From NCBI GenBank assembly GCA_964019425.1, contig OZ025791.1, positions 1,455,075-1,519,074 on the forward strand: DNA of 64,000 nt, given 5' to 3'. The notes beneath the pieces were generated by a model that made no database searches, was not told where the DNA came from, and saw only the letters and a list, made by a program, of their open reading frames with translations. Positions 30,807-51,925 of this stretch are shown here, piece after piece; position 1 is the stretch's first letter; the number at the start of each line of letters is the position of its first letter. The stretch comes from Flectonema sp. DT1601. Its lineage: Eukaryota > Euglenozoa > Diplonemea > Diplonemida > Diplonemidae. Position numbers and translations under genes: made by a program.

Positions 30807-30835
30807 TGTGATTTACAAAAAAAAAAAAACTAAAA

Positions 30836-32200
30836 ATGTCCGGAACACAAGAATCGATGGTCGTGCAGCAACAAGAGCAAGCACAGCAATCAATGATGCA
30901 ACAGCAGCAAGCACAGCAATTAATGGCACAGCAACAGCAGGCACAACACTTAATGATGCAACAACAGCAGCCGCAACAGCCAACACAAAGCCAGCCGGTA
31001 CAACAACAAGCGCAGAACAATTCCAACAATTGCTTTTTACATGGCAACTGGACGCTTGAGACTTTAAGTCAGTCGCAAACTCACCTTCCCAACAATGTCC
31101 CACCAATCTCCCCCTTTTCGTTTATGAGCTCACCAATGATAGCGTTTAAACAGTATCTCAGAATAACAAATCTGTATTTTAAAACAATAAACATTTTAAG
31201 TTTAAAAGAAATGCACTTCACAGTTTCAAAAGACAATGTTGTAAACGTTTTTTCTTGTTTATTGGAAATCAAAAAAGAATGTGCAGCTGATTTCTTAGAA
31301 ATATCCGGCCAACACGGCATTTTCTTTTCCGAACACAAAAGCACTCAACACCTCTCCTCCTACTACACAATTGTGTGGACCCCTGACACACCTTACACCC
31401 AGCTTAAAAAGATAGCAATCGATCTCAATAAAGACCCAAAAAACAAAGGAGCCCTCGGGCTCACAATGTACCAAGGAAGAAGCCTTGGGATACGAATTAA
31501 AAAAGAATCAGAAACAAACTTTCGTTCAAATTTTGGAGTAAAATGTCCGACTTATTTCGAGATAAGCGGCATAAGCAAAGAGAACGCAACGTCATTTGAC
31601 GTTGAATTTTTTTTTGATTTAATGAAAAAAAAAATTAAATACTGTTATAAAAAAAAAAGGGAAGAGTCACATGTTGTGAGCTCGTACGAGAATCTGCAGT
31701 CTTGCGGATCAGTAATCGTTAAAAAAATAACTCAACCCTCAAAAGATGAAAGAAGAATTGAAAAGAACTCAATAGAAACGAAAACAGACCAAACTGAAAA
31801 AAAAGATATTAACGAAAAAGGAAAAGGAAAAGGAAAAGGGAAAGGGAAAAAAGGAAAGAAAGGAACTAAGGGAGAGAGCGGTAAAGGAAAAAAAACTGTT
31901 TTGTCATCACCGTCAACCTCAGTAACCCCGTCAATAGAACAAACGGACATTTTAAACCAGCTAAAATTATTGTTAGATGCACAAACAAAGCATCTAACAA
32001 CAAAGATCATTGGCACTTTTCTAGCCGATGATCCGAAAAAGCAAGCAGAAGCTTGGGATGCGGAAATAAACCCGCAAGAAAAAGAAGGTTTTCTACAAGG
32101 ATCGATGGACGATGACATCGATCTTGTGAAACAGAAGCTGGACAAAGAAAACGATGGTGATGACAACACAAAAAGAAAAAAAGAAGAACCTCCGAATTGA
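30836..32200 (+). CDS. E1 ORF1 protein (Gln-rich N-terminus, RRM-like core, Lys-rich tail)
   Basis: 454 residues from ATG 30836. Residues 1-65 are Gln-rich. Residues about 95-285 form a domain also recognisable in E2-E4 ORF1: a GIFF-type strand, then GRSLGIRIKKE, then CPTYFEISGISKENA. The GIRI/GVRV and FEISGI landmarks occur in the same order in E1-E3 and more weakly in E4. A Lys/Gly-rich block (about 325-345) should bind nucleic acid. ORF1 proteins of LINEs coat the element RNA and help form the RNP. ORF1 ends at TGA followed by CTG and is in frame with ORF2. Confidence 0.75.
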   Translation: MSGTQESMVVQQQEQAQQSMMQQQQAQQLMAQQQQAQHLMMQQQQPQQPTQSQPVQQQAQNNSNNCFLHGNWTLETLSQSQTHLPNNVPPISPFSFMSSPMIAFKQYLRITNLYFKTINILSLKEMHFTVSKDNVVNVFSCLLEIKKECAADFLEISGQHGIFFSEHKSTQHLSSYYTIVWTPDTPYTQLKKIAIDLNKDPKNKGALGLTMYQGRSLGIRIKKESETNFRSNFGVKCPTYFEISGISKENATSFDVEFFFDLMKKKIKYCYKKKREESHVVSSYENLQSCGSVIVKKITQPSKDERRIEKNSIETKTDQTEKKDINEKGKGKGKGKGKKGKKGTKGESGKGKKTVLSSPSTSVTPSIEQTDILNQLKLLLDAQTKHLTTKIIGTFLADDPKKQAEAWDAEINPQEKEGFLQGSMDDDIDLVKQKLDKENDGDDNTKRKKEEPPN

Positions 32201-32278
32201 CTGTTTCCTTATAATTTATATCTTTTTTATTTCTCGAACCTTCTTTTGTGTGGAGACATCCACCCGAACCCCGGTCCA
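32198..32278 (+). promoter_or_regulatory. E1 recoding site: TGA-C readthrough stop plus 2A-like motif
   Basis: The single TGA (32198-32200, next base C) separates two frames that are otherwise the same frame. Twenty-two codons later a Leu-rich stretch (NLLLCGDIHPNPGP) ends at 32278. GDxHxNPGP matches the 2A family except that the usual Glu is His. No in-frame ATG occurs between. Readthrough followed by skipping before the last Pro would give separate ORF1 and ORF2 proteins. Confidence 0.75.
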
Positions 32279-35200
32279 CAAAAAAAGCAAAAAAACAGTG
32301 AGCTGAGAATTGTATCTTTTAATGTTTGTGGTCTCAAGTCGAAATCCGACGAAATAACTTTTTTTTTACAAAATATAAAACCTGACCTATTCATGGTTCA
32401 GGAAACATTGTTAAAGGATAACGACGAAACCATTAATTTTAATGGGTACAAGTGTCTCAGAAGAGACCGGAGAATTCCGGTAAAAAAAAACGCACCCGTC
32501 AGAGGTGGTGGATTGGCAATTTTTTACAAAAACAGCCTAAGCGTGACAGCATTCGCTGTTGCACAACACAGCCAAGACTGCACTGAAGTCCAGGGCATTT
32601 TTGTGTCAAATTCAAAACAAACTGTAAGGGTATACAACGTGTACAGACCACCGGTAAGCCAATCAACCTCTGATAGGTCCCCCTCTTTTGATATGAATAG
32701 TATTTTTCTTTTTAATAAAAATGATAAAGTAGTTATCGCGGGGGATCTTAACGCAAGGCATCCACTCTGGGACCCGAGAGACGAGTCAAACACAAATGGC
32801 CATGAAGTCTCGACTTTTCTAAACAATAACCAGTTTGAATGCTGCAACGTTAAGGAAATCCCCACAAGACCAAAATCAAACACTTCTCCTGATGTTGTTC
32901 TCCAAAAAAACTGTGATATTGGCAACTGGACGACGCTCGAATCTCTATCAAGCGATCATGTACCAATGTATTTTTCTCTTTCTTTTTTTTCGGATTCGAT
33001 AAACAGAGCGAACGGTGCAACGGTTTTTTCTTATAATTGGAACAGGGCACTGTGGCCAAACTACAGCTCCCACCTCGAAAGGGTGGCGAAGCGACTTGAA
33101 AAGATTCAAGATAACCAGAAATTATCAATGGAATTCATAAAAGAATTAAAAAATGCGTTACGGATCTTTGTACCAAGGATTTATTTGAAAGGAAAGTCAC
33201 CAAAGAAGTGGTGGAACACGACGGTTGCATCTAAGTTTCATGAGTTCAACGAGTCACATTGTGACCAACGGGATGATCTTACAGATCTGTCGCAACAGGG
33301 AAAGTCAATTTTTACATCTTTAAAAAAAGAACTCAAAAAAACAGTCGTTGATGCCAAGAATCAACAGTTTAAAAAAAGCCTTAAAAAAGACAAGTCTATT
33401 ATTGAAGCTTTTGAAGACATAAGAGGCCTTGATGGAAGATCAAGACTTAAAGAAATTCGAGAAATCACCTGTGGTGATAAACTTGTTACAGATGATGTGG
33501 AAAAAGCATCAATTTTCAATAATCAATTTTTACAACGTGTTGGTAACATCAAAGAAAAAACAAAGACAAAGAAAATAGAAACAGACCCTTCTGATTTTAC
33601 ACCATTTACACAACATGAACTTAGAATCCAATTGAGAGGAATGGCTCTGGAAAAGAATTCACCAGATGGCGTTCAAGGTATTCTTCTTAACCATTTGGGA
33701 CCTAGAATGCTAAACATTTTACTTAAGATTTTTAACAATTCGTGGAAACATTCTGTTGTCCCGAGTGATTGGAAAGACACACACTGGATCCCTGTTTTAA
33801 AAAAAGGAAAACCCCCAAACCTCCCCTCTTCATATAGAATGATCTCTCTCACCCCTTTTATTGCGAAATTGATGGAAAGAATGGTGAAGGAACGTCTTAC
33901 GTATTTTATGCAATCACCGAATGAAAAGAAAACTGACGGTATTGGTTTCAACCAAACTTCTTATCGGAAAACGCGTTCTTGCCGGGAAAACATCCTATAT
34001 GTTACGGACAGACTTAGATTTCTTAAACACCAAAAAAAGTCAGCGGCCCTTGTTCTTCTTGATATCGAAAAAGCTTTTGATAGTGTGAACCATGATCTTC
34101 TCCTTCAAAGGATGGTAGATCTTGGAATACCAAAACATTTTATAGCCTGGATTCAGGCCTTTCTTAAAAAACGAAGAGCAGCGGTTGTTGTTAATAATGA
34201 AAAAGGTTCTTACCACAATGTTTATTCTGGCGTTCCACAAGGAACAGTTTTGTCGGCTCTACTTTTTACTCTGTATATTGAAAAAGTCGCAGAAAGACTA
34301 GATATTACGGTTGCTAAGTATGCGGATGATATTGCTTTTGTAGTTGATGATGAAGGGAAAGGTTTTACTTATCATTTGGCAAAAACGAAATATTTCTTTA
34401 ATGAGATTGAAAAGGATCTAAACGAATTAAAATTAAAAGTAAGTTATGAGCCTGACAAAACAAAACTTGTGTATTATCCCTACTCCCCAAATTCCCCACT
34501 ACAAACACCTTTCACTTTTACTTCAAATTTAACAAAAAATATTGTTCCATGTGTTGATAGCGCCAAGCTTCTTGGGGTGATCCTTGATAACAAGCTCGAT
34601 TGGAAACAGCATATCTCGTATATTTGTAGAAGAGTTAATCTTCGCTTAAGGTATCTGAAGCTTGTCGCATCAAAAGCATGGGGACAGTGTACTGCAACTT
34701 TGCGTGAGGTGTATGATTTGTATATTCGACCTGTCATAACAAACTCGTGTGAAGCTTTTTATCCTGAAGTTAGGTATAAAAAGATTCACATGGACAGGCT
34801 TCTCTCTTTACACCTTAGGGGTGCGTGCTATGTCTTAGGTGCCTTACCACCAACAAGGGAAACAAGAGATAAGATCTTTTTTGAGGCACAACAACAAAGT
34901 ATCAACACCCATTTGAGACTTGAAACTGGTAGATGGTTCGCCAAAATGGCGCGAATCACGTCCCCTTTATTAAATGTCTTTATTCCACCTGAAAGAATAT
35001 CCTCAACACCCATTGATTCTTTTACTCGTTTAGGAATGAATGTTCTGAAAGAACACAACCTTCTATCACTCAGTTTTGAGAAATATCCCATTTACGTTCA
35101 TCCTCCATGGAGTTTTTCAAATGATTTCAATGTTTTTAAACCAGAAATGCATGTTAGAAAAAAAAAAGACAAAAAGAAAAATAAAAAAGCCTGTGAAGCT

Positions 35201-36145
35201 GTTCTTAATGAAATAAGGAAAGATTATGAACCAGTCTTAGAGGTATATACCGATGGTGCCGTTGTTGAAGAACGCGGTGCTGCGGGTGTGTACATCATAG
35301 ACAGCGAAGGAAATGAATTTCTCACAAACAAAAGTGAAGCAGGAATAATCTGCACCTCTTTTAGGGCTGAAATGATGGCGATCAAAAACGCTTTTGTTTT
35401 ACTTTTTAAGGAATTTAAACCGCCGGAAAATGCGTCAGTTTTATTTGTGTCAGACTCCTCCAGTGCCTTGATGGAACTGGAAAAAGGGGGAACAAAACAG
35501 AAAACGAGACTAGGAAGCCGCATCTGGCAGTTTATTGAATTTTTCAACAATAAATTCAAAACAAAGTTTATTTTCCAGCATGTCTTTTCTCACTGTGGTA
35601 TTGTCGGAAACGAAGAAGCAGACAAACTAGCCCAAAACATTTCATTAAAAAAAGATGAAGAAACCCTTTTAAAACAAAAAAAAGTTCCCATAGACTACAG
35701 CACCCATGTAGCTAAACTAAAACACAGAATAAAAGAAAAATTTGACCCCCGTCCTTTCCCATCTGAAACTGAAAGAGCGGAAGAAATTCTGATTTCACAA
35801 CTCAGAATTGGCGACTGTAAACAAACACAAGGGAAATGTCCTAGGTGCAGAGAAAAAGACTCTGTAGAGCACCTGTTAGCAAAATGCTCAAAGTACAGAA
35901 AAGAGAGGAGGATGTATCTCCAGAAAGACTCTCTAACACAAGAAGAGTTAAAGGATTGTCTTTCCACTGTACAAGGACTAGAGAATGTTTTTCTTTTTAT
36001 GTCATCTGCAAGAAGATATGTTTTTCCAGAAAAAGAAAAGAAAAAAGAAAATTTGAGTCAGGAAACAAAGAAAGAAAATGAAGAAAACGTTATCCTTCAA
36101 CCCACACTTTTCAATACTGTGATTCAAAACTCACAACTGACTTGA
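32201..36145 (+). CDS. E1 ORF2: AP-like endonuclease, reverse transcriptase, RNase H, CCHC
   Basis: The frame opens after the TGA and has no ATG before the enzyme. The product would start at the Pro of NPGP (32276). The endonuclease shows FNVCG, QETLL, GDLNARH, SPDVV and SSDH. The RT shows SYRMISLTP, LLDIEKAFDSVNH, GVPQGTVLSALLF and KYADDIAFVV. RNase H shows VYTDGA, RAEMMAI, SDSSSAL and HCGIVGNEEADKL, so all acidic residues are present. The C-terminal Cys/His motif is CPRCREKDSVEHLLAKC. Together these nick target DNA, prime reverse transcription and remove template RNA. The frame is intact, so the copy may be young. Confidence 0.9.
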   Translation: MFPYNLYLFYFSNLLLCGDIHPNPGPQKKQKNSELRIVSFNVCGLKSKSDEITFFLQNIKPDLFMVQETLLKDNDETINFNGYKCLRRDRRIPVKKNAPVRGGGLAIFYKNSLSVTAFAVAQHSQDCTEVQGIFVSNSKQTVRVYNVYRPPVSQSTSDRSPSFDMNSIFLFNKNDKVVIAGDLNARHPLWDPRDESNTNGHEVSTFLNNNQFECCNVKEIPTRPKSNTSPDVVLQKNCDIGNWTTLESLSSDHVPMYFSLSFFSDSINRANGATVFSYNWNRALWPNYSSHLERVAKRLEKIQDNQKLSMEFIKELKNALRIFVPRIYLKGKSPKKWWNTTVASKFHEFNESHCDQRDDLTDLSQQGKSIFTSLKKELKKTVVDAKNQQFKKSLKKDKSIIEAFEDIRGLDGRSRLKEIREITCGDKLVTDDVEKASIFNNQFLQRVGNIKEKTKTKKIETDPSDFTPFTQHELRIQLRGMALEKNSPDGVQGILLNHLGPRMLNILLKIFNNSWKHSVVPSDWKDTHWIPVLKKGKPPNLPSSYRMISLTPFIAKLMERMVKERLTYFMQSPNEKKTDGIGFNQTSYRKTRSCRENILYVTDRLRFLKHQKKSAALVLLDIEKAFDSVNHDLLLQRMVDLGIPKHFIAWIQAFLKKRRAAVVVNNEKGSYHNVYSGVPQGTVLSALLFTLYIEKVAERLDITVAKYADDIAFVVDDEGKGFTYHLAKTKYFFNEIEKDLNELKLKVSYEPDKTKLVYYPYSPNSPLQTPFTFTSNLTKNIVPCVDSAKLLGVILDNKLDWKQHISYICRRVNLRLRYLKLVASKAWGQCTATLREVYDLYIRPVITNSCEAFYPEVRYKKIHMDRLLSLHLRGACYVLGALPPTRETRDKIFFEAQQQSINTHLRLETGRWFAKMARITSPLLNVFIPPERISSTPIDSFTRLGMNVLKEHNLLSLSFEKYPIYVHPPWSFSNDFNVFKPEMHVRKKKDKKKNKKACEAVLNEIRKDYEPVLEVYTDGAVVEERGAAGVYIIDSEGNEFLTNKSEAGIICTSFRAEMMAIKNAFVLLFKEFKPPENASVLFVSDSSSALMELEKGGTKQKTRLGSRIWQFIEFFNNKFKTKFIFQHVFSHCGIVGNEEADKLAQNISLKKDEETLLKQKKVPIDYSTHVAKLKHRIKEKFDPRPFPSETERAEEILISQLRIGDCKQTQGKCPRCREKDSVEHLLAKCSKYRKERRMYLQKDSLTQEELKDCLSTVQGLENVFLFMSSARRYVFPEKEKKKENLSQETKKENEENVILQPTLFNTVIQNSQLT

Positions 36146-36680
36146 TTTCTCAAGCTTCCAAATTAACCAAAGTAGCACCTACACCATGGGGATGGTCTGA
36201 TTGTTGATTGACTGATGGGCCGATATAGATTGGACACAGATCGAGAGTTTTTGAGAGATCTTAGATGAAAGTCCGCACCTTTCAGGCCATCCCCAAAAAG
36301 CACATAGCAGCTACAGCTATGTCAATTCAAATTGCGACGAGCTGCAACTTCGACATGAAGTTTTTCGTTATTGTTCTTACCTTCTCCACATATTTACATA
36401 TGTGATAAGTATAAGTCATATCTTACGATTGACAATTCCTCCCCATAAATAAATTTCTTTTTATTATTTTATTTTACACCTGCCTTACTAACTTGGGGAG
36501 AAAGAAAGGATGAACAATGGGCCTCTTATGAGGTGGGCAATTGCCCTGGACCCACATTAAATGTACGCGTGTTTTGCGTCAGCCCGTTGCTGTAGAAAAA
36601 GAAGAGACAGTTTCAGGTAGTAATGAAAAAAAAAAGAAAACCAACGATTTTTATTTATTATTAATAAATAAATAAAATAA
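36146..36680 (+). other. E1 3' UTR with two predicted hairpins and TAAA-type tail
   Basis: 36188-36200 and 36282-36294 form a 13-bp inverted repeat (one G-U) closing an 81-base loop. 36302-36308 and 36316-36322 form a perfect 7-bp stem (ACATAGC/GCTATGT). The region ends in A-rich TAAA-type repeats before E2. 3' UTR stem-loops often mark LINE RNA for its own RT. No open frame is seen. Confidence 0.5.
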
Positions 36681-36687
36681 CGATTCT

Positions 36688-36735
36688 AAAGCTACAGTTT
36701 CTGTACTTTATTGAGTCTGACTGTACTTTATTGTG
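36688..36735 (+). promoter_or_regulatory. E2 5'-end motif shared with E1
   Basis: 36688-36713 is identical to 30763-30788 in E1, and 36721-36735 to 30792-30806. It lies 17-64 bases before ORF1, at a similar distance as in E1. Confidence 0.6.
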
Positions 36736-36751
36736 ACATACACAACACAAA

Positions 36752-37825
36752 ATGGCTGACTGGAAAGTATCTGATGGAATCGTTGTTATTGCTGAAACCA
36801 CCGTGAGGGCTTTGACTGAAGCTGAGTATAAAGGCGTATCTGATTTCGACACACAAAATTGTGATGTAAAAGCATCGTTTCAAAGAATTTTAACATCTAT
36901 AAATTACAGTGAAAAAATATTAGGGCTCTATCGTCCCGACATAAGTACACAAAAAATCAACGATAAACTTCCTGAATTTAAAACCTTCTCGATTCTTCTC
37001 AAGATAGAAGAACCAAATCTAAGACTATTTTTAAGTGCCTCCGGAAGAGGAGGGCTGTTTTTCAGACTAAGGAAAGACCACCCCATGAACCAGATCTTAA
37101 GTGTGATCTGGCTGGGGAGAATGGACCTAAAAACGTCCATATTAGCGCAGGAAAGTGTAAAGAGCACTTATGGAATAGCCCTGTGTAGGGGAAATTATGG
37201 AGTACGGGTAGAGAACGCCTGTAGGGAACAGGTACGAAAAAGTATTGGGGTGAAGTCCCTAGGATACTTCTCGGTAGAGGGTATTCCCAAGGGAGTCCCA
37301 GTGGACAAGATAATTGCAAACTTCGCAACAAAAGATATTGTGGTGAAGCCGATCAAAGTAATTGATGGCAAGTGGGTCCTCAAAATAGAGGATGACTTTC
37401 TGGGAGGTGAGAATAGAATGGTGTTGGAATGGCCAGACCATGGGGTGAAGCTTGCATGCTCCCGAACCGAAAGGCCGAAACCAAAGCTGATAACCCATAC
37501 AGCTGAAGGTGCACCACAGGCAAAGCCTGAATCAGACAAACAAGAAAAAGTGCAACAAAGTGGTATGGAGAGTAAACTTGACAAATTATTGTCGATGAAT
37601 GAGACGTATTTCAATAAAATAGAGAACATTGAAAAAAATGTCGAAATAAGCAACGTTCGTGTTGCGAAAATAGAAAATAATGTTGCAAATCAAAACAAAA
37701 ACTTTGAGGCAATCCAAAAACGTTTCATGCAAATTGAAACAAAACTAGAAATACTAATGCCAGGATTAGGGCAGACAGAGATCAGTGGATCTGATGTGGA
37801 CATGTCAAACGGTGAATATGATTGA
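36752..37825 (+). CDS. E2 ORF1 protein
   Basis: 357 residues from ATG 36752. Residues about 75-220 show the domain shared with E1: GRGGLFFRL, then NYGVRVEN, then LGYFSVEGIPKGV. Residues about 270-345 are a predicted coiled coil (KLDKLLSMNETYFNKIENIE), as in trimeric LINE ORF1 proteins. The frame ends at TGA followed by CAT, in frame with ORF2. There is no zinc knuckle. Confidence 0.7.
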   Translation: MADWKVSDGIVVIAETTVRALTEAEYKGVSDFDTQNCDVKASFQRILTSINYSEKILGLYRPDISTQKINDKLPEFKTFSILLKIEEPNLRLFLSASGRGGLFFRLRKDHPMNQILSVIWLGRMDLKTSILAQESVKSTYGIALCRGNYGVRVENACREQVRKSIGVKSLGYFSVEGIPKGVPVDKIIANFATKDIVVKPIKVIDGKWVLKIEDDFLGGENRMVLEWPDHGVKLACSRTERPKPKLITHTAEGAPQAKPESDKQEKVQQSGMESKLDKLLSMNETYFNKIENIEKNVEISNVRVAKIENNVANQNKNFEAIQKRFMQIETKLEILMPGLGQTEISGSDVDMSNGEYD

Positions 37826-37954
37826 CATGCAGACCATACTCATAAAAACAACAACCCGTCCCCTCCAATAGACACCAACGTTGAGAAAAGCATAAATGTG
37901 ATTAATGACAACTTGCTGGTTCAACGTGGTAATGTCCATCCCAACCCGGAACCA
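37823..37954 (+). promoter_or_regulatory. E2 recoding site: TGA-C plus degenerate 2A-like motif (NPEP)
   Basis: TGA at 37823-37825 (next base C) is the only stop between ORF1 and ORF2. Forty-three codons on, the motif reads LLVQRGNVHPNPEP, with Gly replaced by Glu and Asp by Asn. Both are essential in known 2A peptides, so skipping is probably lost here and readthrough would give a fused ORF1-ORF2 protein. Confidence 0.65.
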
Positions 37955-40900
37955 AATAATGAAAGAAACTATACAGACCTTAAAATAATATCAGTAAACA
38001 CGAGGTCGATGACAACATCAATTGAACTTCTACGTCTCCTTGTTATTAACTATGAACCTGACGTGCTATTAATACAAGAGACATTTTTAACGAAAAATAA
38101 GAAAACACCCGTAATTGAAGATTATAACTCATATAGGAAAGATAGGACACTTCCAACACAAGTAGGTAAACCTATAAGAGGAGGAGGTCTACTAACCTAT
38201 GTTCATAATAAATATAAATTTAAAGAAATCGCGATCACACAAAGTGATTGTGACTCACTTGAAATATCAGCTGTTGAAATACAATGTGATGAACCTCTAA
38301 TTGTCTATAACATATATCGTCCACCCCTGCAATATAAAGATACTAGGTGCCCGAATCTTAGCCTAGATTGCATTGACTTGAAAAATAATATGAAAAATGA
38401 TGTTGTCATAATGGGAGACTTTAATACACATAACCATATGTGGGAAGAGAATTCCATTGACGACATCAACGGAGAAATCGTATCTGAGTGGATTAGTGAA
38501 AACAATCTTGTGTGTTGGAATGAGCCATCAATTCCAACAAGGTTGGAATCAAGGACCTCTCCGGACATAACCCTAACGAATACAAATATGAGAATAAAAT
38601 CCTGGTCTACCCTTGGAACAGTTAACTCTGATCACTCACCAATGATGATTGTAATACAAAACTCGTGCAAAAATGTTGACTACCAAAAAGTGAAAAAATG
38701 TGGTTTCAACTGGGCCGAAGCTGATTGGACAAACTTCAGTGATGACCTTGAATTAGTCTCTGAGAGAATCCAAGATATTAAGATCAATGAAAAGAAAGCA
38801 AAAATCTTTAAGAATGAAATATTAAAAGCAAAAAGTAAACACGTACCTAGAATCTATGTGCGTAGGCGAAAAGCGAAGAAGTGGTGGAACTCCGAACTAA
38901 TGAAACAGCTTCGTCAATTTGAAGCTAAACAAAAAGAAATTACAGATGACAGCGACCTGAATGATGAAAATATCGCACTACTAAAGAAATTGAATGAAGA
39001 AATATGTGAAAAAGTAAAAGAATGTAGGGAACAACAAATTGAAAAAAGAGTGAAAGAATGTGTTACGGATGATGGATCTCCGAACAAAGATGGCATTTTA
39101 AAGTACATGGATGATGTGAGAAAACTTGACGGGCGGTGTGAAAGGGTAGAAATACCATTTATACACGACCCAAATATGGAAAAAATAATCGACGATAAAG
39201 AAAAAGCTGATTTCTTTACTGATTTCTTCTCAACTATAGTAGGGAAAGATATAAATGAAAAGTACAGACATAACTTCAACATGAATATTAAAGATGACAT
39301 AGTTCCGTTCACTTTTTCTGAGGTGATGACACAATTGGGAAAACTACATAGTACCAAATCTTCACCTGACGGAATGAATGCGATCCTGTTGCAAAATCTA
39401 AAACCCAAAATGCAAAAAACATTAGTTGATATCCTAAATAACTCTTGGTTGAACATGGTAGTACCTAATGACTGGAAACAGACTTATTGGGTACCGATTG
39501 CAAAACCCGGAAAAGACCCCCACAATCCAGCATCTTACAGAATGATAGCGCTCACCCCTGCGATCACTAAACTTATCGAAAAATTAATAAAGAACAGACT
39601 TGTATATCACTTGGAAAAACATAACAATGGTGTTAAAAACCTGAGTCATAATCAAGCTGCTTATCGTAAAACGAGATCGTGTAGGGAACAGATTCTGTAC
39701 CTAATCGATATACTCAAAGAGAATAGAATAAGAGGGAAAACTTCGGCGGTTGTCTTTATGGATATAAAGAAAGCTTTTGATTCTGTCAACCACCACAAGT
39801 TACAAGAAAGAATGAGAAAGATGTCGATACCTGAAAACTATATTAGGTGGGTCGAAAGCTTTCTGCACAAAAGGACAGCTGCGACTATAATTAACAGCAG
39901 AGTAAGCAAGTACATTAAGCTCACAAATGGAGTCCCGCAGGGAACTGTCCTTGCGAGTATATTATTTGTACTCTACATTGATGAAATAACCGAAATTATA
40001 GAGAACAAAGCAAACATGTCACTCTATGCAGATGATATTGCATTTGTAGTATCTGACGAAAATTGTGCTGGTAGGCTGTCAAAAAGAGTTCAAACTGTAT
40101 TTACGAAAGCGGAAGAACACTTAAACAACATTAATCTTGAGTTGGCGAGAGATAAAACAAAAATAATGATTGTTGACTCGAGTACCTCACGGAAAAAGAA
40201 ATGCCAATATAAAATTAAATTTAAAGATAAGACGTGCCTAACAGAAACTGATTCTGAGAGGTTCTTAGGTGTCCAGATTGATAATGATCTATCGTTTTCT
40301 GATCATGTATCTCAAATATGTAAAAGTGTGAACAAGAAACTTCGCTTCCTAAAAATGCTGGCTGATAAAAGATGGGGTTGTACTAAAAATATAATCAGAC
40401 TAGTCTACTTAATATACATCATACCTGTATTTACCTATGCTATCGAGAGTTTGTACAGCACCATTGTACGAAACAGAAAACTAATGCGAAAACTGAATAC
40501 TCTTCATATGAAAGCAGCTCAAATCATAACTGGTGCTGACTACGGAACAAAATTTGAGAAGGTCTTGGAAGAATCCTGCGTAGCGGATCTGAACAGCTAC
40601 TATCTTGTTGAAACAGCAAGATGGGCTGCAAAGATCGAACGACTGCGTGCCTCTCCTTGTACCAAAAGATTGATGGAAAAACGAAAAATAAAATATAAAC
40701 ATATGCAAACATTGTGTTTTGCAATCAAAACGTATAGTGATATTGGTCTCACAGACCTACCAGTAGAACTTTATCCTCCAACTTACTTTCCTCCTTGGAA
40801 GGATTTTGATAAAATAGAAATTAACGAAAATATTGGTGCGAGAAAATGCGAAAACACGAATAGAAATCAAGATATCTGTAAAGAACTTATCAGAAAATTA

Positions 40901-42461: not shown

Positions 42462-42476
42462 TTTATTTATAATTAA

Positions 42477-44396
42477 AGTTACAAATTACAACAGCAACAA
42501 GAAGACCAGAAGTCAAAGCTAGATCTGGAACTTCAAGAAGGAAAACTGCGACAACAGCAACAGAAGCTCCAACTCCAACAAAGCAGCCTCCGTCAGCAAA
42601 CGCATGCAGTAAGCCAACCTCCGGTTTACTACATGCAGCACCAGCCTTATGCACCGATGCATCAAAGGCAACCGTACCCGCCGGTACTTCCGCAACAACA
42701 GGGAATTGAACAACTCCGACTGGAGCTCCAGAAAGAGAGAGAAGAGAAGGGTGAGCTGAGGAAGTTGCTCATGGAACTCCAGACTCAGCTGAAAGAACTG
42801 AGACAGGAGTTGGCCTCATCGAGAGCGCAGAGAAGCGAAGAAGTGAATGAGGTCGTAGTAGCCCCGAGCCAACCACCACTGGGAATTGCCAACTTAGTGA
42901 ACGGTCTGACCTACTCTCGCTCCTACGGCCTCACCACTGATGAGTCAAAGGTTAGATCAGCTGTACAGAGGAACTGCACATCCGAGTGGGAATCACTGGA
43001 AAAGAAAGCGACGCAGTCGATGAAAGCTGTTGAAAAAGCCAGACGTCTCTGGGAGAAAACCAACAAGAAGGAGAGGGAAGTGTTGAACTCCTGGAGCCTG
43101 AGGGAAGTTGATTGGAACATTCCGGTCACGAAGTTTGAGGAGGTATCGAAAGGGAATCAAGGAGTAGCCCTTGCGACGCCTTCGGAGGCAAGAGATCTTC
43201 TGGGGATGAAGCCGGAGGTTCCTGCATGGAAAACGTGCAGCGTGGTAACGCTGGACCAAGTGAATGGACAAGGAAGAAGGGAACACGTGCTATTATCGAG
43301 CAAGGATGGAAACAAGGTACATCGCATCTTCATTCATGACCTGGGTGAGGCTGCTCTACCAAAGGGTAAGCGGGGTATTAAATCGGTGAAGGCAATAGTG
43401 ACCGCTCCTAAAAGAAGGTGGAAGGATGATAAGTGGCTTGAGTTAGCGAGTAAGCCTGAGCACCTCATCACAAAAGAAATGAAGGACACACCCGGCTTCA
43501 TGGAAGCGTACAACTTCAGGGTAACGAAGAGTACGGTGTCGGCTGTCATCCGACTGAGGAAATCCGGGGCGGTGGAACTGCTAAGAACTTCCGGCAAAGA
43601 TGGGAGGTTCTTGTGGATCCAAGACGAAGGGGAGGCTCCGAAGGATACAGTTATTTGGCTTCAGGACGAGTGCTCTTTGAAGGAGGCAGTTGAACACTCT
43701 GATTCCTTGGAATCGTTGGGATTAGTCGAAAACCCTAAAGGTTTTGGTATCAGAGTTTCACCGGAGCTGGAAGATGTAACCAGGGAAAAACTGGGAATCC
43801 CTGCAAAGCTCCCTGAATTAGAAATCTCGGGAATTCCGTTAGATGTACTTCCCCGTGAAGCGGTAGCGCTGCTGGCGAAGGATGGGTGGCATGTGAGAGC
43901 AACCGTGGATGGAGTAAGGACTGGATACAGATGGATGAGGGTGCGTGCTGAAGTGCCGGATGACGACACGGTATTAATCGACGGTAGGGCATGTACGGTT
44001 GAGGTAGTTCAAAGACAAGATCGTAAGAAGCGCCAAGCTGCCAGAGAGGTGGATGTGAAGGAGAAAACTCAGCCAACGTCAACTGCGGAGAGCACACCGG
44101 AAAAAGGCCTTACTCCGCCGGAGAAGAGACGTGATCCAACAGAGGGGGAGGCCTCTAATCGTTGCTACTTGCGAGCAGAATTCTTATCCTTTCATGGTAA
44201 GGGGAAGGGGAAGAGACTCTGGCGGGAAGCGGGTGTGAAGATTGAGGAGAGGAAAGGAGCCTTGAAGGAAGTAGGTCCTGTAGAGCAGGTTGTGACAAAG
44301 AAAACTGTGAAGAAGTCGACAGCTGAACAGGATACGATGGAACGAAGGATGGATCGTTTAGAGATGCTGATGACGAGATTCTTGGAAGGTAAATGA
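42477..44396 (+). CDS. E3 ORF1 protein, N-terminus missing
   Basis: Open from 42477 in a Gln/Leu-rich helix (KLDLELQEGKLRQQQQKLQL). The first ATG is at 42633 (587 residues), inside this helical region, so the native start is probably lost. A coiled coil continues to about residue 65 from the ATG. The shared ORF1 core follows: GRFLWIQDEGE, GFGIRVSPE, LPELEISGIPLDVLPREAV. A basic tail includes GKGKGKRLWRE. It ends at TGA followed by CGG, in frame with ORF2. Confidence 0.7.
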   Translation, partial: SYKLQQQQEDQKSKLDLELQEGKLRQQQQKLQLQQSSLRQQTHAVSQPPVYYMQHQPYAPMHQRQPYPPVLPQQQGIEQLRLELQKEREEKGELRKLLMELQTQLKELRQELASSRAQRSEEVNEVVVAPSQPPLGIANLVNGLTYSRSYGLTTDESKVRSAVQRNCTSEWESLEKKATQSMKAVEKARRLWEKTNKKEREVLNSWSLREVDWNIPVTKFEEVSKGNQGVALATPSEARDLLGMKPEVPAWKTCSVVTLDQVNGQGRREHVLLSSKDGNKVHRIFIHDLGEAALPKGKRGIKSVKAIVTAPKRRWKDDKWLELASKPEHLITKEMKDTPGFMEAYNFRVTKSTVSAVIRLRKSGAVELLRTSGKDGRFLWIQDEGEAPKDTVIWLQDECSLKEAVEHSDSLESLGLVENPKGFGIRVSPELEDVTREKLGIPAKLPELEISGIPLDVLPREAVALLAKDGWHVRATVDGVRTGYRWMRVRAEVPDDDTVLIDGRACTVEVVQRQDRKKRQAAREVDVKEKTQPTSTAESTPEKGLTPPEKRRDPTEGEASNRCYLRAEFLSFHGKGKGKRLWREAGVKIEERKGALKEVGPVEQVVTKKTVKKSTAEQDTMERRMDRLEMLMTRFLEGK

Positions 44397-44480
44397 CGGC
44401 ACGTAGATGGAAGGAACTGGGCTGAGACTCGAAGACGTCTCTTGCTGATAGCAGGGGACGTTGAACGAAACCCAGGGCCG
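44394..44480 (+). promoter_or_regulatory. E3 recoding site: TGA-C plus canonical 2A motif
   Basis: TGA at 44394-44396 (next base C). The frame continues without stop or ATG to LLLIAGDVERNPGP, ending at 44480. DVExNPGP is the canonical 2A consensus, preceded by the usual Leu-rich stretch. Confidence 0.85.
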
Positions 44481-47400
44481 AATAGGAGAAAGGATGGTCC
44501 CTCTTGCAAACTAAATGTAATCAGTTGGAATTGTCGCACCATCTCGAACAAAATGGAGTTCATTGGACACATCCTGAGTAAGCTTGACCCCGACGTACTT
44601 TGCCTTCAGGAGACTTCTTGCAGGATGGCATTGTTTCATTGGAACTACGTTTGCTACAGGGGGGATAGGCCAGGAAGGGGAGGTGGCCTGATCACTTTAA
44701 TAAAACGAGGAATTCAACATGATTGCTTTGATATCTCCATACCGTCGATGAGAGGAACCGTCGAGTCGATGGGTGTCAGAATTAACGAAGACGTAAGTAT
44801 TCTCAACATCTACTCCCCACCGAGCTCGAGGATTAATTTTGAACTATTCTCCCTGAAACGTGTTGGCAAGTTCATTCTCGCTGGTGACTTCAACGCACAC
44901 CATAGGTACTGGTCCAAGAAAACCGACGTAAAAGGCTGTGACCTTCTCAACTGGACAGGGCAAGAGGACCTCCTGATTGCGAACCCGCCAGGTCTAGCGA
45001 CACTGCCGAGACATGGGACCTCGCCCGATCTGATCCTGCACCACGAGGAGATTCAACTGCTTAACTTTGAGCTGGTAGGTGAAGGAATTGAGCACGGTTC
45101 GGATCATACACCACTCTCTGCTACCTTCGATACGCTCTCACCCCTTGAGCCTTCGGGCAACCACGCGACGAAGAGATCGGTCTGGGACTTCAATACAGCT
45201 GATTGGTACTCATATGAACATGAACTAGACTACAGGTTTGGAAAGGTAAACAACTCTGCGAGCGTTGGGAGAAGAGCAGTAACGTTCAACAGAATCGTTC
45301 TTGGAGTAGCGAAGAGGTACGTTAGGAGAAGGCTTCGGATCAAAGGGAAGAGAAGAAGAATGTGGAACGCTTCCACCCCAGATACCAAGCGTGCGAAGGG
45401 AAAATTTATCGCTGAACGGCTAGCAAAAGGTGAAGGCTTTGCATATGCGTTCAAAAAGATAAAGGACCTTGAGACGGATGAAGGACGTGAAATTCACATT
45501 CCGGAGTTTGACGAGAACCAACTACCTGCGAAGTTCTTGGAACAATTTGTCAAGACCCCGACAAAACGTAAACTAAGACCTCCGAATACGAAGAGCAGCG
45601 ACTTCGCCAAAATCGGAGGGAATCTAACAATGACTGAACTGAAGCGAGCCATCAAGAAGGTAAGGCCCGGGAAAGCACCAGGTCCAGATGGAATCCATGG
45701 GATAATGTTGAAGAACTTATCGGTGATAGGAATGGATTTCCTCCTGGCGTTATTCAATGAATCGTGGCTAACGTCAAAGGTACCGAGGATCTGGAAGGAG
45801 GGTCTTATCAAGCCAGTTTACAAACCAGGTAAGCCAAAAGATAAGATCGCAAGTTTCAGACCGATCACGTTGACCTCGGTGGTGGGTAAAGTACTTGAAA
45901 GAGTGATTTATGATAGGTTGATGTATTGGCTTACCCAGAACAATGCCCTGTCGTCTATCCAGGCGGGTTTTAGAAGAGGAAGGAATACGTGTGAGCAGAT
46001 TTCAATGTTAGTCAACGCTCTTCATGAGGCCAGTGAAAAGAACAAGAGCTCTGTTCTGCTGTCGTTCGACTTCACGGAAGCATTTGATAGAATTAATCAT
46101 GAGAAACTGATCAAGAAGATGAAGAACATGAGTATTCCCTCCCCGTTCATTGCATGGGTAGTTGACTTCCTGAAGGGCAGGCAGGCAAGGGTGAGTGCGA
46201 ATGGCAACCTTAGCTCCTACAGAACGGTAACGAGGGGGGTTCCCCAAGGTTCGATTATCGGCCCGCTGCTATACCTGATTTATGTTGATGACCTGGCGAA
46301 GTTGTTGGAAAAGACTGGCTCAGTTTCGGCTCTTTATGCAGATGACACCGCTTGTGTAGTCTCTGATAAGGACGTTAATTTAACCAATAAGAAAGCGCAA
46401 TGGATCCTTGGACTTGTGGATAGCTGGTGCAAAACCAATGATATGGCACTGTCCGTCTCTAAGACATGCGGTATGCCTGTGCGCTGCCCAAAGGATATCT
46501 ACTGGAGACTGGGCTTCCCCAGGACTGCAAAGGATAATTATTACGTTGTAAGCAGGGGAGATCTGGCTAAGATGATCAGACCGAACGAGTTTGGAAGGCC
46601 AATTCTGGGTAGTGGAGAAACCATTCTCAAGGTGGATGATACCGAAGTTGCTAATACGAAGGACCTGCTTGCAATTTTCCCTGATGGATCAAGTAAGCTG
46701 AGAGTAAGGTTGTTAACCGCAGTACTGATGCCGATGGTAGACAGCGTTAAATACCTGGGGGTGCACATTGATGGTGATTTATCTTATGGAACACAGGTCG
46801 GAAAGATGCTGGATGAGACCAGGAAGGGTCTTGCACTCCTGGGGAAACTAGAACAGTATGATTTTGATTTTAAGACGCTGTGCATGGTCAAGAACCTGTA
46901 CATACTTTCAAGGCTGTCATATGGGCTGGAGAGCTTCGGTCCTTTCCTATCTGAGGGTCAGATTGATCTTGTGGACTTGAATCTGAAGAAGATTGCGAGA
47001 AGGATAACGGGTTGCAGCATCTACACCAGGTCTCTCCCACTGCTCTTGGAGGCGAACATGCTCCCGATGAAGTTGATAATAGAAAAACAGGCCAGAACTG
47101 CTCTGTTTAGGTATCGATCGCTGAAGTGGGTACGTTCGACGAACCGAATAGCGAAAGGATTCTGGAGTTCTAAGTTGCCGCAGGAAGATTGTAACATCGC
47201 CCTCCAAGGAATAGTTCAACCTGACAGCATCGAACCTTGGGCGGATGTACCAAATCTAGAGATATCCTGTGGGTATGGTCATAACAAGACCGGTGATGCT
47301 GATGTGGATAGGAACAAATTTGAGGAATACTGCAGGGACCTAGTCCCTTGCAACTCGGCTATATATGTGGACGGCTCACATGATCCTGCTAACTACACTG

Positions 47401-48284
47401 CGGGTGCGGCAGCAGTACAGGTCTCACCAACTGAGAGAACGATGTCGTCAAGACTTGTAGCTACTGAAAGCAGCTACAAGGCTGAACAAGTAACACTCAA
47501 ACTGCTGATGAGAGAAATTGGCAAAGCTGACTCGATCTTGGGTCCCAGGTCAGGTATTACCAGAATCTTCAGTGACTCGAAATCCAACCTGGAGGAACTC
47601 AATGGAGGGATTGTTGCCCAGAGGAAGTTGAACTCTCTGTTAATACTGGAAAGCATTAGGGATCTGAAGACACAGGTGCATCTCCAGTTTATCCCGGCCC
47701 ATGTGGGGATTGAACCACACGATAAGGCTGATAAGCTGGCCAAAGAAGTCTCGAAGGATGCCGAAAGTAAACCGGTCTCAACGACCATGGATTTCTTCGC
47801 CCACAAATCAAGGGTAGCGAGGGAGTCTCACAGGAAGTTGATAGGAAAGATGATGGAAGCCTCCGAGAAGGCAAAGCCTCCAATGAAACGGGTGATGCTC
47901 AGACAGTATCTGGAGGCGACCGGAGGATTGAGAACTGCTAGATATCCGAAAGACATGCTGAGGGCTTCGGAAGTAAGAATTGCACAATTCAGAACGGGTT
48001 CACACCCCTTGCTGAGAGACAAAGGCGTACAACTGAAGTGCCCTTTTTGTAAACGGACGGACTCATCACCTAGACACTTGATGTTTAACTGCATGAACTC
48101 TGCTCTGGTACGCATCAGAAATGGAACAATTGGATCTGTCATGGAAGAAGCGAAGATTTCAAAGAAGGAACACAGCCTGCTATTTATGTTCGCTACGAGG
48201 AACTTACATTCCCTCGCTGGCTTCATATGGCATTTAGAACAATGGACGGCAACAAGCTGTTATCAGAAGTTACTATCTTTTTAG
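44397..48284 (+). CDS. E3 ORF2: AP-like endonuclease, reverse transcriptase with insertion, RNase H, CCHC
   Basis: The endonuclease shows SWNCRT, LQETS, GDFNAHH, SPDLIL and GSDHTP. The RT shows SFRPITLTS, LSFDFTEAFDRINH, GVPQGSIIGPLLY and LYADDTACVV. Between the catalytic box and VDSVKYLGVHI lies an extra segment (about 46490-46725) with GSGETILKVDDTEV, resembling a half PDZ. RNase H shows IYVDGSHD, KAEQVTL, SDSKSNL and HVGIEPHDKADKLA. The C-terminal Cys/His motif is CPFCKRTDSSPRHLMFNC. The frame is intact to TAG. The product would start at the Pro of NPGP (44478). Confidence 0.88.
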   Translation, partial: RHVDGRNWAETRRRLLLIAGDVERNPGPNRRKDGPSCKLNVISWNCRTISNKMEFIGHILSKLDPDVLCLQETSCRMALFHWNYVCYRGDRPGRGGGLITLIKRGIQHDCFDISIPSMRGTVESMGVRINEDVSILNIYSPPSSRINFELFSLKRVGKFILAGDFNAHHRYWSKKTDVKGCDLLNWTGQEDLLIANPPGLATLPRHGTSPDLILHHEEIQLLNFELVGEGIEHGSDHTPLSATFDTLSPLEPSGNHATKRSVWDFNTADWYSYEHELDYRFGKVNNSASVGRRAVTFNRIVLGVAKRYVRRRLRIKGKRRRMWNASTPDTKRAKGKFIAERLAKGEGFAYAFKKIKDLETDEGREIHIPEFDENQLPAKFLEQFVKTPTKRKLRPPNTKSSDFAKIGGNLTMTELKRAIKKVRPGKAPGPDGIHGIMLKNLSVIGMDFLLALFNESWLTSKVPRIWKEGLIKPVYKPGKPKDKIASFRPITLTSVVGKVLERVIYDRLMYWLTQNNALSSIQAGFRRGRNTCEQISMLVNALHEASEKNKSSVLLSFDFTEAFDRINHEKLIKKMKNMSIPSPFIAWVVDFLKGRQARVSANGNLSSYRTVTRGVPQGSIIGPLLYLIYVDDLAKLLEKTGSVSALYADDTACVVSDKDVNLTNKKAQWILGLVDSWCKTNDMALSVSKTCGMPVRCPKDIYWRLGFPRTAKDNYYVVSRGDLAKMIRPNEFGRPILGSGETILKVDDTEVANTKDLLAIFPDGSSKLRVRLLTAVLMPMVDSVKYLGVHIDGDLSYGTQVGKMLDETRKGLALLGKLEQYDFDFKTLCMVKNLYILSRLSYGLESFGPFLSEGQIDLVDLNLKKIARRITGCSIYTRSLPLLLEANMLPMKLIIEKQARTALFRYRSLKWVRSTNRIAKGFWSSKLPQEDCNIALQGIVQPDSIEPWADVPNLEISCGYGHNKTGDADVDRNKFEEYCRDLVPCNSAIYVDGSHDPANYTAGAAAVQVSPTERTMSSRLVATESSYKAEQVTLKLLMREIGKADSILGPRSGITRIFSDSKSNLEELNGGIVAQRKLNSLLILESIRDLKTQVHLQFIPAHVGIEPHDKADKLAKEVSKDAESKPVSTTMDFFAHKSRVARESHRKLIGKMMEASEKAKPPMKRVMLRQYLEATGGLRTARYPKDMLRASEVRIAQFRTGSHPLLRDKGVQLKCPFCKRTDSSPRHLMFNCMNSALVRIRNGTIGSVMEEAKISKKEHSLLFMFATRNLHSLAGFIWHLEQWTATSCYQKLLSF

Positions 48285-48605
48285 TATATCATACTCATAC
48301 ATCACTCCTAATTCATCTCCTAATAACTCTCTGAGGACATCCGTAGAGCTTCATAGCTCGCAGGTAACCCAGTGGTCTTTGGCCACCGTCTCCGTATTGA
48401 TCATTCGCTTTGTACTTACAGTGTCGTGAGCTTCCTATCCGGGGAAGTCCTCCAACGGACTCACAACAGTTGCACTCGTTGTTGCTTATTTACTTAGTTA
48501 AAAAATAAGAAGAGCGAGTATGCTCAGAAAGAATAAAAACAAAGTAGAAAGACAGGGGGGATGTGACTAAATAAATAAATAAATAAAAATAAATCTTTTT
48601 TTCTT
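48285..48605 (+). other. E3 3' UTR with hairpin conserved in E5
   Basis: 48372-48386 reads GTGGTCTTTGGCCAC, a 6-bp stem (one G-U) with TTT loop. E5 has GTGGTCTTTGACCAC at 48936-48950 on the minus strand. The flanks AG and CG also match. The element ends in TAAA repeats. Confidence 0.6.
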
Positions 48606-48623
48606 TTTTCGTGGCCCACCTAG
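48606..48623 (+). other. tRNA-Lys 5'-end fragment between two converging element tails
   Basis: This 18-bp segment (TTTTCGTGGCCCACCTAG) is the exact reverse complement of 30731-30748. It covers the first ten bases of the tRNA-Lys gene plus eight bases of its 5' flank. It sits exactly where the E3 tail and the E5 tail meet. Confidence 0.6.
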
Positions 48624-50745: not shown

Positions 50746-50872
50746 ATTAGCCTTCCTATACTGTATGCACCTGGGAAAGAGAAGTATACTTAATTGAATG
50801 GACATGCAGTTAACAAGTCTGAGATCACAAAGAAGAATCTACACTGTGGTGCAGATTACTTCTGCGTAGGGG

Positions 50873-51817
50873 TTGTACTGGGCCGTTTCGATTCGACGGG
50901 ACACCGGCACCACCACCTTGACATTGACCTATATAAAGAAATTGAAGATAAAGGCGGACCCCTTTAGCTACAGAAAGAACGAGTCCCACACCTCGATGGC
51001 TTTCAGAGTCCCCAGAAACCAAGTACACGAGGTTCTGGAATACAACAACAGCGAACCCGAAACTGACAAACCCAAGAATGTCTTTTTCAGAAACCCGAGT
51101 TGGTCGAACGGAAGTGACGTTTGGCCAACGTTGCAATTCAAAAACGACCTTGGCTTCCTGGCAGCGAAGTCCAAGACTTCTGCACTTGATGAATTCAAAG
51201 GAAAATTCTACATGTGCAGGTTTAAAAGCTGTTTTGGACTCCGAGTCCACCCTGACTGTAATATCAGGGTCAGCATTAAGCTCAACGCGGCAATCAAGCC
51301 TGCACTGCCCTCGGGCGACAGGTTTGTTATAAATTCGATGGCGATTCGTAAGTACTCGACAGCGCAGATCAGCGACTTCTTGAAGTCCTCACACAACTGG
51401 GAACACACAGTTGTTGCTTCTTTCCATAAAGGAGGGAGTACTACAATTGTTGCAATTGCGAAATCTCAACCGCCCAACTTCGTAAGCATAGGTACTAATG
51501 AATACCTTGTGATAAACAAAGAAGTTAAACGAACTGACAGAAAACCGCTAGGCCCAACCTACAACCCAGGCGACGCGGCTCAAAAACTAACGGGAACCCT
51601 GAAGAGACAAAAAACAACTCCTCAACCACAACAGCCAACTCAGCAGCCGACATCAGCACCAACACCAGCGCCAGCACCATCAGCACCAACACCAACACCA
51701 GCACCAGCAACAGCACAAACAACAACACCGCCCACCGAATCTGCTGCTAAGCAGGATAGTGATAAAAACCGTGACGTAGAAATGGAAAGTAACGATTCGG
51801 ACTTTGATCTCAACTGA
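50873..51817 (+). CDS. E4 ORF1 protein
   Basis: The frame is open from 50870. The first ATG is 50996 (273 residues, MAFRVPRNQV). The core resembles the other ORF1s in weaker form: KFYMCRFKSCFGLRVHPDC, then DRFVINSMAIRKYSTAQISD. The tail is Pro/Thr/Ala-rich (residues about 190-245) and ends acidic. It ends at TGA followed by CTA, in frame with ORF2. No zinc knuckle is seen. It is likely the RNA-binding RNP protein, as for the other copies. Confidence 0.65.
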   Translation: MYWAVSIRRDTGTTTLTLTYIKKLKIKADPFSYRKNESHTSMAFRVPRNQVHEVLEYNNSEPETDKPKNVFFRNPSWSNGSDVWPTLQFKNDLGFLAAKSKTSALDEFKGKFYMCRFKSCFGLRVHPDCNIRVSIKLNAAIKPALPSGDRFVINSMAIRKYSTAQISDFLKSSHNWEHTVVASFHKGGSTTIVAIAKSQPPNFVSIGTNEYLVINKEVKRTDRKPLGPTYNPGDAAQKLTGTLKRQKTTPQPQQPTQQPTSAPTPAPAPSAPTPTPAPATAQTTTPPTESAAKQDSDKNRDVEMESNDSDFDLN

Positions 51818-51925
51818 CTAGATGACGATGAGGATGAACTCAGTCCGACCAACTCACTTGTGGAAAAGGATACGGCTCGTGAACTGCTGCTAAAGGCAGG
51901 CGACGTCGAACGCAACCCTGGCCCT
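51815..51925 (+). promoter_or_regulatory. E4 recoding site: TGA-CTA plus canonical 2A motif
   Basis: TGA CTA at 51815-51820 is the classic leaky UGA-CUA context known from viral and cellular readthrough genes. The frame continues through an acidic linker to LLLKAGDVERNPGP, ending at 51925, with no other stop and no ATG. Confidence 0.88.

Follow-up and report, generated by a model that had tools for sequence, protein, structure and literature searches.

Candidate stop codon readthrough ahead of a 2A motif at the ORF1/ORF2 boundary of LINEs in a diplonemid genome

A 64,000-nucleotide stretch of the diplonemid Flectonema sp. DT1601 (contig OZ025791.1, positions 1,455,075 to 1,519,074; hereafter the window) forms the end of a contig in an 89.5-Mb assembly. 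It contains four units of long interspersed nuclear elements (LINEs), E1 to E4, which precede a terminal repeat array. In each unit, a single in-frame TGA followed by C separates a long frame of open reading frame 1 (ORF1) from a frame for endonuclease (EN) and reverse transcriptase (RT), ORF2. In the same genome, a stop codon followed by C was found at the aligned position of 99 of 101 distinct ORF1/ORF2 boundaries (78 TGA, 20 TAG and 1 TAA). From these comparisons, the expression of ORF2 probably relies on programmed readthrough at the ORF1 stop, followed by 2A-mediated release where the 2A motif is intact; we assign this reading a probability of about 0.82.

Anatomy of the four LINE units

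All features of the four units are on the plus strand. The E1 ORF1 (30836..32197, from the first in-frame ATG of a frame that opens at 30812) ends at a TGA (32198..32200) followed by CTG, and the translated linker (32201..32278) ends with the 2A core GDIHPNPGP at 32252-32278. The E2 ORF1 (36752..37822, likewise from the first in-frame ATG; the frame opens at 36737) ends at a TGA (37823..37825) followed by CAT, and its linker (37826..37954) ends with the defective 2A-like motif GNVHPNPEP. E3 begins directly 3' of the E2 poly(A). Its ORF1 (42477..44393) is without the N-terminal part when compared to the full relative P0121, whose ORF1 has 1054 residues and whose C-terminal residues match the end of the E3 ORF1. 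The E3 stop TGA (44394..44396) is followed by CGG, and the linker (44397..44480) ends with the 2A core GDVERNPGP at 44454-44480. The ORF1 of E4 (50870..51814) is a short copy, with a frame of 315 residues compared to 558 in copy L058. It ends at a TGA (51815..51817) followed by CTA, and the linker (51818..51925) ends with the core GDVERNPGP at 51899-51925. The first-pass annotation, made from the letters alone, had described one frame split by a single TGA-C in all four units, and this was confirmed at 32198, 37823, 44394 and 51815. The run of 25-43 codons without an in-frame ATG was also reproduced, as the segment from the stop through the 2A motif measures 26, 43, 28 and 36 codons in E1 to E4. 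Out-of-frame ATGs are present in the linkers of E2, E3 and E4.

The ORF2 frames of E1 (32201..36145) and E2 (37826..41761) contain EN, RT and RNase H domains (Exo_endo_phos, RVT_1 and RNase_H) above the Pfam cut-offs and end on TGA-T and TAA-A, respectively. The E3 frame (44397..48284) contains the same domains with RNase H below the cut-off and ends on TAG-T. The E4 frame (51818 to approximately 54740) is cut by a telomere-like repeat. By their predicted domains, elements of this type are APE-type LINEs. No Pfam family was found above cut-off in ORF1 by the Pfam search. Over the first ~660 residues, ORF2 identity is 36-37% between E1 and E2, 47% between E3 and E4, and 24-27% between these pairs, in agreement with the two diverged subgroups recognized earlier.

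Genome-wide conservation of the boundary stop

The 101 boundaries were collected from 50 strict-2A matches, from RT- and EN-selected loci, from five targeted loci (four with a boundary) and from 20 small pieces (two not LINEs), and were counted after five duplicate places had been merged by a coordinate check. They were detected by alignment to references from the same loci, a procedure that would miss unlike lineages, and the ORF1 frame was checked in some, not every, copy. The strict 2A DNA pattern gave 137 matches in the genome compared to 0 for the reversed pattern; 100 of these places were listed, 50 were read directly and three more lie in loci L052, L056 and L058. Among the 34 pattern places for small pieces, 20 were read, 12 lie in the window or in other loci and two were left out. 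Two pattern matches, L098 and L110, were rejected as LINE boundaries on reading. Because of the 137 matches against 0, the 2A cores occur more often than by chance, and so does the stop-plus-C arrangement, which is present in 99 of the 101 boundaries.

The two remaining boundaries have TGG-C (L017 and L045), and both copies are damaged elsewhere. At least two of the 99 (L018 and L103) have a frame broken by an indel, with the letters of the stop and C intact. When the upstream frames of the 50 strict-2A matches were read, the nearest in-frame stop was TGA-C in 48, the other two being the broken copies L017 and L018. By family, TGACTG was found at 10/10 distinct E1-type boundaries (one frame-broken, L103), TGACAT at 5/6 E2-type boundaries (TGGCAT in L045) and at 10/10 boundaries of E2b, TGACGG at 8/8 distinct E3-type boundaries (one frame-broken, L018), and TGACTA at 13/13 E4-type and 7/7 E4b-type boundaries. 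Seven boundaries were read in the CCG19 family. The proposal that other LINE copies share the same-frame order ORF1-TGA-C-2A-ORF2 was therefore upheld for the stop followed by C and not for TGA, which is not universal. The contrary outcome had been named as different stops, frameshifted ORFs or an ATG for ORF2 in most other full-length copies; here, TAG or TAA stands at 21 boundaries, TGG-C at two, and an in-frame ATG in the linkers of 2 of 20 lineages.

Some copies are broken (L017, L018, L045 and L103), as would be expected if the boundary stop were a decay mutation in dead copies. However, many copies across several families have the same full-length open ORF2 frame, the stop is retained at 99 of 101 boundaries, and both losses to TGG occurred in broken copies. 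The chance that decay explains the stop is negligible.

Stop codon identity and nucleotide context

The base after the stop (+4) was C in 20 of 20 reference lineages, which are related, several of them closely, and do not count as 20 independent trials. Between the three ORF2 clades to which lineages belong, identity is only ~24-33%, and even comparisons inside a clade (E3/CTT17, E4/CTT47 and 1374/1384) have saturated synonymous sites. The residue begun by this C is Leu in nine lineages, Gln in six, His in three, Arg in one and Pro in one, i.e., all five amino acids with CNN codons; all four bases occur at +5 and three at +6. Since the base is invariant and the residue variable, the constraint acts on the base rather than the residue. 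For comparison, C starts 104 of 300 other linker codons, and of all stop triplets in the window, 20-22% are followed by it. A C at +4 was seen after ORF2's own terminator in 1 of the 6 reference lineages compared, and at the ends of 0 of 4 neighbouring L051-type LINEs. Upstream of the stop, the -2 base was A in 20 of 20 lineages, and the final sense codon of ORF1 was always NAN (Asn 9, Lys 7, Gln 2, Asp 1 and Glu 1). This A may help to determine readthrough from the P site; which codon occupies that site is reported to influence termination at a leaky stop (PMC9841425).

Six lineages do not use TGA: 1374 has TAG-CAA-TCA, 1384 has TAG-CAA-CGA, L087, L088 and L089 have TAG-CAA-CTA, and L090, a single copy, has TAA-CAA-CCA. 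The rule that all boundary stops are UGA was rejected by this TAG/TAA clade, and the rule shared by all lineages is a stop followed by C. UAG-CAR-YYA is described as the type I viral readthrough motif, and UGA-CUA and UGA-CGG as type II contexts (PMC3542737). The type I arrangement, UAG or UAA before CAR-YYA, is found in 1374, L087, L088, L089 and L090, and 1384 departs from it at one base. Among the 14 UGA lineages, UGA-CUA occurs in E4, E4b and 1276 and UGA-CGG in E3; the other ten (E1, E2, E2b, CTT17, CTT17b, CAT17, CTT47, CTT47b, CTT47c and CCG19) have UGA-C only. UGA-CUA alone is reported to give 1.5% readthrough in human cells (PMC4132726). The leaky context is present again after the identity of the stop has changed, a pattern not expected from neutral drift.

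These observations also bear on two other explanations. If ORF2 were translated from its own mRNA, made from an internal promoter or by splicing, the boundary stop would be an ordinary terminator; a precedent is the Candida element Tca2, in which a minor promoter was found to account for junction expression in a reporter (PMC2194720). This explanation accounts neither for the constant frame and the +4 C nor for the CAR-YYA at UAG and UAA and the contrast with ORF2's own stops, and we consider it very improbable. Still less probable is that the triplet is not a stop in this host, whether because UGA/UAG is reassigned, because a suppressor tRNA is abundant or because selenocysteine is inserted. 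None of the three stops occurs within the ORF2 frames (~1300 codons) or within four further long frames of the window (758-2479 codons), all of which terminate at TGA, TAG or TAA, and no internal stop was seen in 149 of 150 RT matches. Therefore, all three triplets are true stops here. Selenocysteine as a general mechanism was rejected by the UAG and UAA lineages.

Linkers between the stop and the 2A motif

The distances from the stop to the end of 2A were 25, 26, 28, 32, 33, 36, 38, 43 and 56 codons, all in frame. In eight pairs of short linkers with an estimable synonymous rate (dS), the ratio of nonsynonymous to synonymous rates (dN/dS) was 0-0.30, with the highest value in L089/1384. Between CTT17 and CAT17, there were 7 synonymous changes (15.0 sites) against 1 nonsynonymous change (36.0 sites), a dN/dS of 0.04. 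Between E3 and CTT17, there were 12.5 synonymous changes at 14.3 sites against 3.5 nonsynonymous changes at 36.7 sites. The ratio was 0.16 for E3/CCG19 and 0.15 for L087/1384; the E3/1276 and 1374/1384 linkers were too diverged for an estimate. By this substitution pattern, the short linkers evolve as protein. A homologous linker with its 2A was also found within one long open frame of the EukProt transcript P0125, behind a different N-terminal domain, as is expected of a translated segment.

The long-linker families (E4 and CTT47) have retained the frame and its openness. The CTT47 linker has a low dS, and no sharp conservation peak confined to the linker, checked as a sign of RNA-level constraint, was found in the CTT47 region. 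The E2/E2b linker is unconstrained (dN about 0.7, with gaps) between a constrained ORF1 (ratio 0.095) and a constrained EN (0.099). The suggestion that the layout is under selection was thus supported by frame keeping across linker lengths and by the low dN/dS of short linkers, and was not extended to the peptides of the E4 and CTT47 linkers.

ORF2 could also be expressed by reinitiation coupled to termination, on a non-AUG codon located at the ORF1 stop or close to it. The LINE BmSART1 has such a translational switch at the ORF1/ORF2 boundary, using an AUG (PMC5972666). In its favor, the AUG of ORF2 overlaps the stop of ORF1 (ATGATTGA) in L051, another LINE of this genome, and E1 has CTG as its first linker codon. 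However, the mechanism of BmSART1 is described as needing an overlapping stop-restart site (PMC5972666), which is absent from the 20 lineages and present here only in L051. An in-frame AUG is missing from 18 of 20 linkers, and no lineage of the 20 has one at the stop. The linkers begin with different codons (CTG, CAT, CGG, CTA, CCG, CTT and CAA) that have only the initial C in common. Reinitiation would require no frame relation, yet the frame of ORF1 and ORF2 is held over many linker lengths, and short linkers show protein-level constraint. Reinitiation is therefore an unlikely account of these boundaries, and programmed readthrough is preferred. L051 itself (C69:695748-702748, overlap at about locus position 494) is a separate LINE, seen as one copy, with its ORF2 AUG in another frame. 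Its overlap resembles the AUGnnUAG overlaps described for victoriviruses (PMC3542737).

Status of the 2A motif

A 2A core was taken as (D/G/C/N)(V/I)ExNPGP or an assayed variant. The canonical core was found in E3, E4, E4b, CTT17, CTT17b, CAT17, CCG19, CTT47 (a, b and c) and 1276. Variants were found in 1384 and L087-L089 (Gly at position 12), in E1 (His at position 14) and in 1374 (both). Among 2A sequences, Gly at 12 is reported as common, and variants with His at 14 or 16 are reported to have about 90% activity or more (PMC12846837). Active 2A sequences are reported to conserve, and to require, glycine 18 (PMC5972666). In the E2 motif GNVHPNPEP, Glu replaces this Gly, for which reason it should not be counted as 2A, and the E2 2A is, from its sequence, almost certainly dead. 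In E2b, the sister of E2, the motif is gone, and in L090 it reads GFPRHPGP, which makes a doubtful 2A. Since TGA-CAT is kept at all E2b boundaries despite the loss of 2A, readthrough would not depend on 2A. In the proposed switch, readthrough is the step in common and 2A a module that can be lost, without obligatory coupling between the two.

The first-pass annotation had counted a 2A-type motif in all four units. This was borne out in E3 and E4 by the canonical core and in E1 by an assayed-active variant, and E2 had been misread. Its scheme of readthrough followed by 2A remains the prediction where the core is intact, is doubtful in L090 and fails in E2 and E2b, and the readthrough part reaches beyond the four elements. 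Overall, its observation was right, and its inference appears largely right and broader than first stated.

Proposed mechanism and points against it

In the proposed mechanism, most ribosomes would terminate at the end of ORF1 and yield abundant ORF1 protein, and a minority would insert an amino acid at the stop via a near-cognate tRNA. Termination would be weakened by the C at +4 (in CUA, CGG, CAA-YYA and other C-contexts), and perhaps also by the P-site codon with its middle A. Readthrough ribosomes would continue in frame across a linker of 16-47 codons. At an intact 2A core, the chain would be released at NPG and a free ORF2 protein would begin with Pro. In elements with decayed 2A (E2 and E2b), the product would remain an ORF1-ORF2 fusion, as in Gag-Pol. 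The switch may in this way set the ratio of ORF1 to ORF2.

Several observations, besides the relatedness of the 20 lineages, weigh against this mechanism. No conserved 3' stem-loop was found near the boundary stops in a search of the local 3' region for a stem-loop from ~8 nucleotides past the stop, with long-range pairing outside its scope, although type II sites usually carry one. E3 has a strong hairpin after the stop (folding z of -2.98, compared to -3.68 in a control window of E1), but it is not kept by relatives and overlaps codons fixed by the RRLLLxAGDV peptide. The UAA stop of L090 rests on one copy, and UAA is reported as the least leaky stop with CARYYA (PMC4132726). The long linkers are without peptide constraint, with a dN/dS of 0.72 for E4/E4b and of 1.4-2.6, on few changes, for the CTT47 pairs. 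An in-frame ATG is present in the linker of 2 of 20 lineages (CTT47b and CTT47c). The in-frame gag/pol UGA of Tca2 is reported not to have directed readthrough in a yeast reporter (PMC2194720). The ORF1-stop-ORF2 layout may have arisen once.

Comparison with known systems

The stop and hexanucleotide class of type I viral readthrough recurs in 1374 (UAG-CAA-UCA), L087-L089 (UAG-CAA-CUA) and L090 (UAA-CAA-CCA), with a polymerase frame downstream. The viral examples given are UAG-CAA-CUA in Providence virus, an exact match to L087-L089, UAA-CAA-UUA in pomovirus RNA2, and UAG-CAR-YYA in tobamoviruses (PMC3542737). In contrast to these viruses, the putative signal here lies in a LINE, 1384 has CAA-CGA, and a 2A core mostly follows. 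The UGA-CUA of E4, E4b and 1276 and the UGA-CGG of E3 are shared with type II viral sites (PMC3542737), and mammalian genes with UGA-CUAG are similar (PMC4132726). Unlike in these systems, no conserved extended 3' stem-loop was found, and ten UGA lineages have another C-codon. A single in-frame stop between a structural and an RT frame also occurs in Tca2 (gag-UGA-pol) and gammaretroviruses (gag-UAG-pol). However, these are a long terminal repeat element and retroviruses, with (potential) pseudoknots, and no 2A is named in the passages concerned (PMC2194720 and PMC3542737). A LINE with stop codon readthrough between ORF1 and ORF2 was not recognised among the listed matches in the open-access literature, as far as their available text goes, and an earlier description is possible. 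What appears new is the combination of known viral readthrough signals and known 2A as an ORF1/ORF2 switch of LINEs.

2A/StopGo sequences in APE-type LINEs, the trypanosome elements L1Tc and Ingi, were reportedly described by Odon in 2013 and linked to elements with a single ORF. As in those elements, the core motif here follows a Leu-rich stretch close to the ORF2 N-terminus. By that account, the present elements differ in keeping two ORFs and in the leaky-context stop ahead of 2A.

Phylogeny and modularity of the boundary

The ORF2 tree, which covers lineages of this genome without named reference elements (Ingi/L1Tc), contained the clades E1/E2 (support 100/99), 1374/1384/L090 (99/98) and E3/E4 (100/100), all with the same layout. 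The branching order of these three clades and L051 was without support. The short loci L087-L089 resemble 1384.

The CCG19 family (L011 and L092; C2:541325-546900) is chimeric. Its ORF1 is 59% identical to that of CTT17 and has the same kind of linker-2A, and its EN-RT polymerase is unrelated, with only 24% identity to the E3 ORF2 and in the RT part only. In the 1276 family, an E3-like ORF2 (70%) is joined to an ORF1 that is closer to those of E4 and CTT47 (32%). As read from these sequences, recombination near the boundary kept the frame, the putative leaky stop and 2A. In the EukProt sequences P0124 and P0125, a CCG-type polymerase is joined in the same frame to another N-terminal domain, with 2A in P0125 only. 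The weak Josephin-like match of this domain in P0125 lies below the Pfam cut-off (E 0.012), and residues 1-163 of P0125 had no PDB match. The search for ORF1 homologs returned two proteins only (ENA), both ending at boundary residues found in this genome. P0004, P0006 and P0008 are homologs in transcripts of other organisms, available as protein sequences, and P0004 has its starting ATG about 22 residues ahead of the 2A core.

We lean slightly towards boundary readthrough being the ancestral switch of the whole LINE group. In this reading, it would have crossed three stops with a viral-grade leaky context, would outlive the loss of 2A, and would belong to a cassette of ORF1, leaky stop and 2A that was recombined before an unrelated ORF2 in CCG19.

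Other features of the window and telomere-like repeats

An array with the 8-base repeat unit AACCCGCA occupies the window from ~54740 to its right end and presumably represents the telomere. Because this repeat contains no stop, the open frame at the E4 locus reached 4061 residues among the listed LINE matches. Perhaps some of the other open frames listed at LINE matches (up to 4061 residues) are stretched in the same way. ORF2 frames of LINEs run straight into the telomere-like repeat both in the window and in L051, and L085 also contains AACCCGCA. An open RT frame of 2016 residues on C69 was rejected as a stopless ORF1-ORF2 fusion, being an ORF2 frame that enters the telomere-like repeat. 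Minus-strand 3' fragments of an ORF2 of the E4 kind (49143-50746) adjoin E4 and form an inverted pair with it before the contig end.

Upstream of the LINE units, three plus-strand frames were noted. The frame at 5012-12451 encodes a Cys-rich repeat protein of 2479 residues without a Pfam match, which presumably resembles EGF-like repeats. The frame at 23673-25949 encodes a BspA-type leucine-rich repeat protein of 758 residues. The frame at 27168-28868 encodes an OTU-like protease domain (Pfam E 1.6e-6) with a YIDDF motif ahead of it, which we take as reminiscent of a reverse transcriptase.

Implications

The dosage of ORF1 and ORF2 in LINEs is an old question, answered so far mainly by reinitiation in few elements. 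If the proposed mechanism is true, this LINE group would solve it like tobamoviruses and gammaretroviruses, with 2A then uncoupling the products. Its lineages offer natural comparisons, with and without a working 2A in the same element group and with UGA, UAG and UAA versions of the stop. It would further supply readthrough signals from outside viruses and animals' own genes, which reporters can test directly. These results suggest a convergence of LINEs and RNA viruses on the same hexanucleotide.

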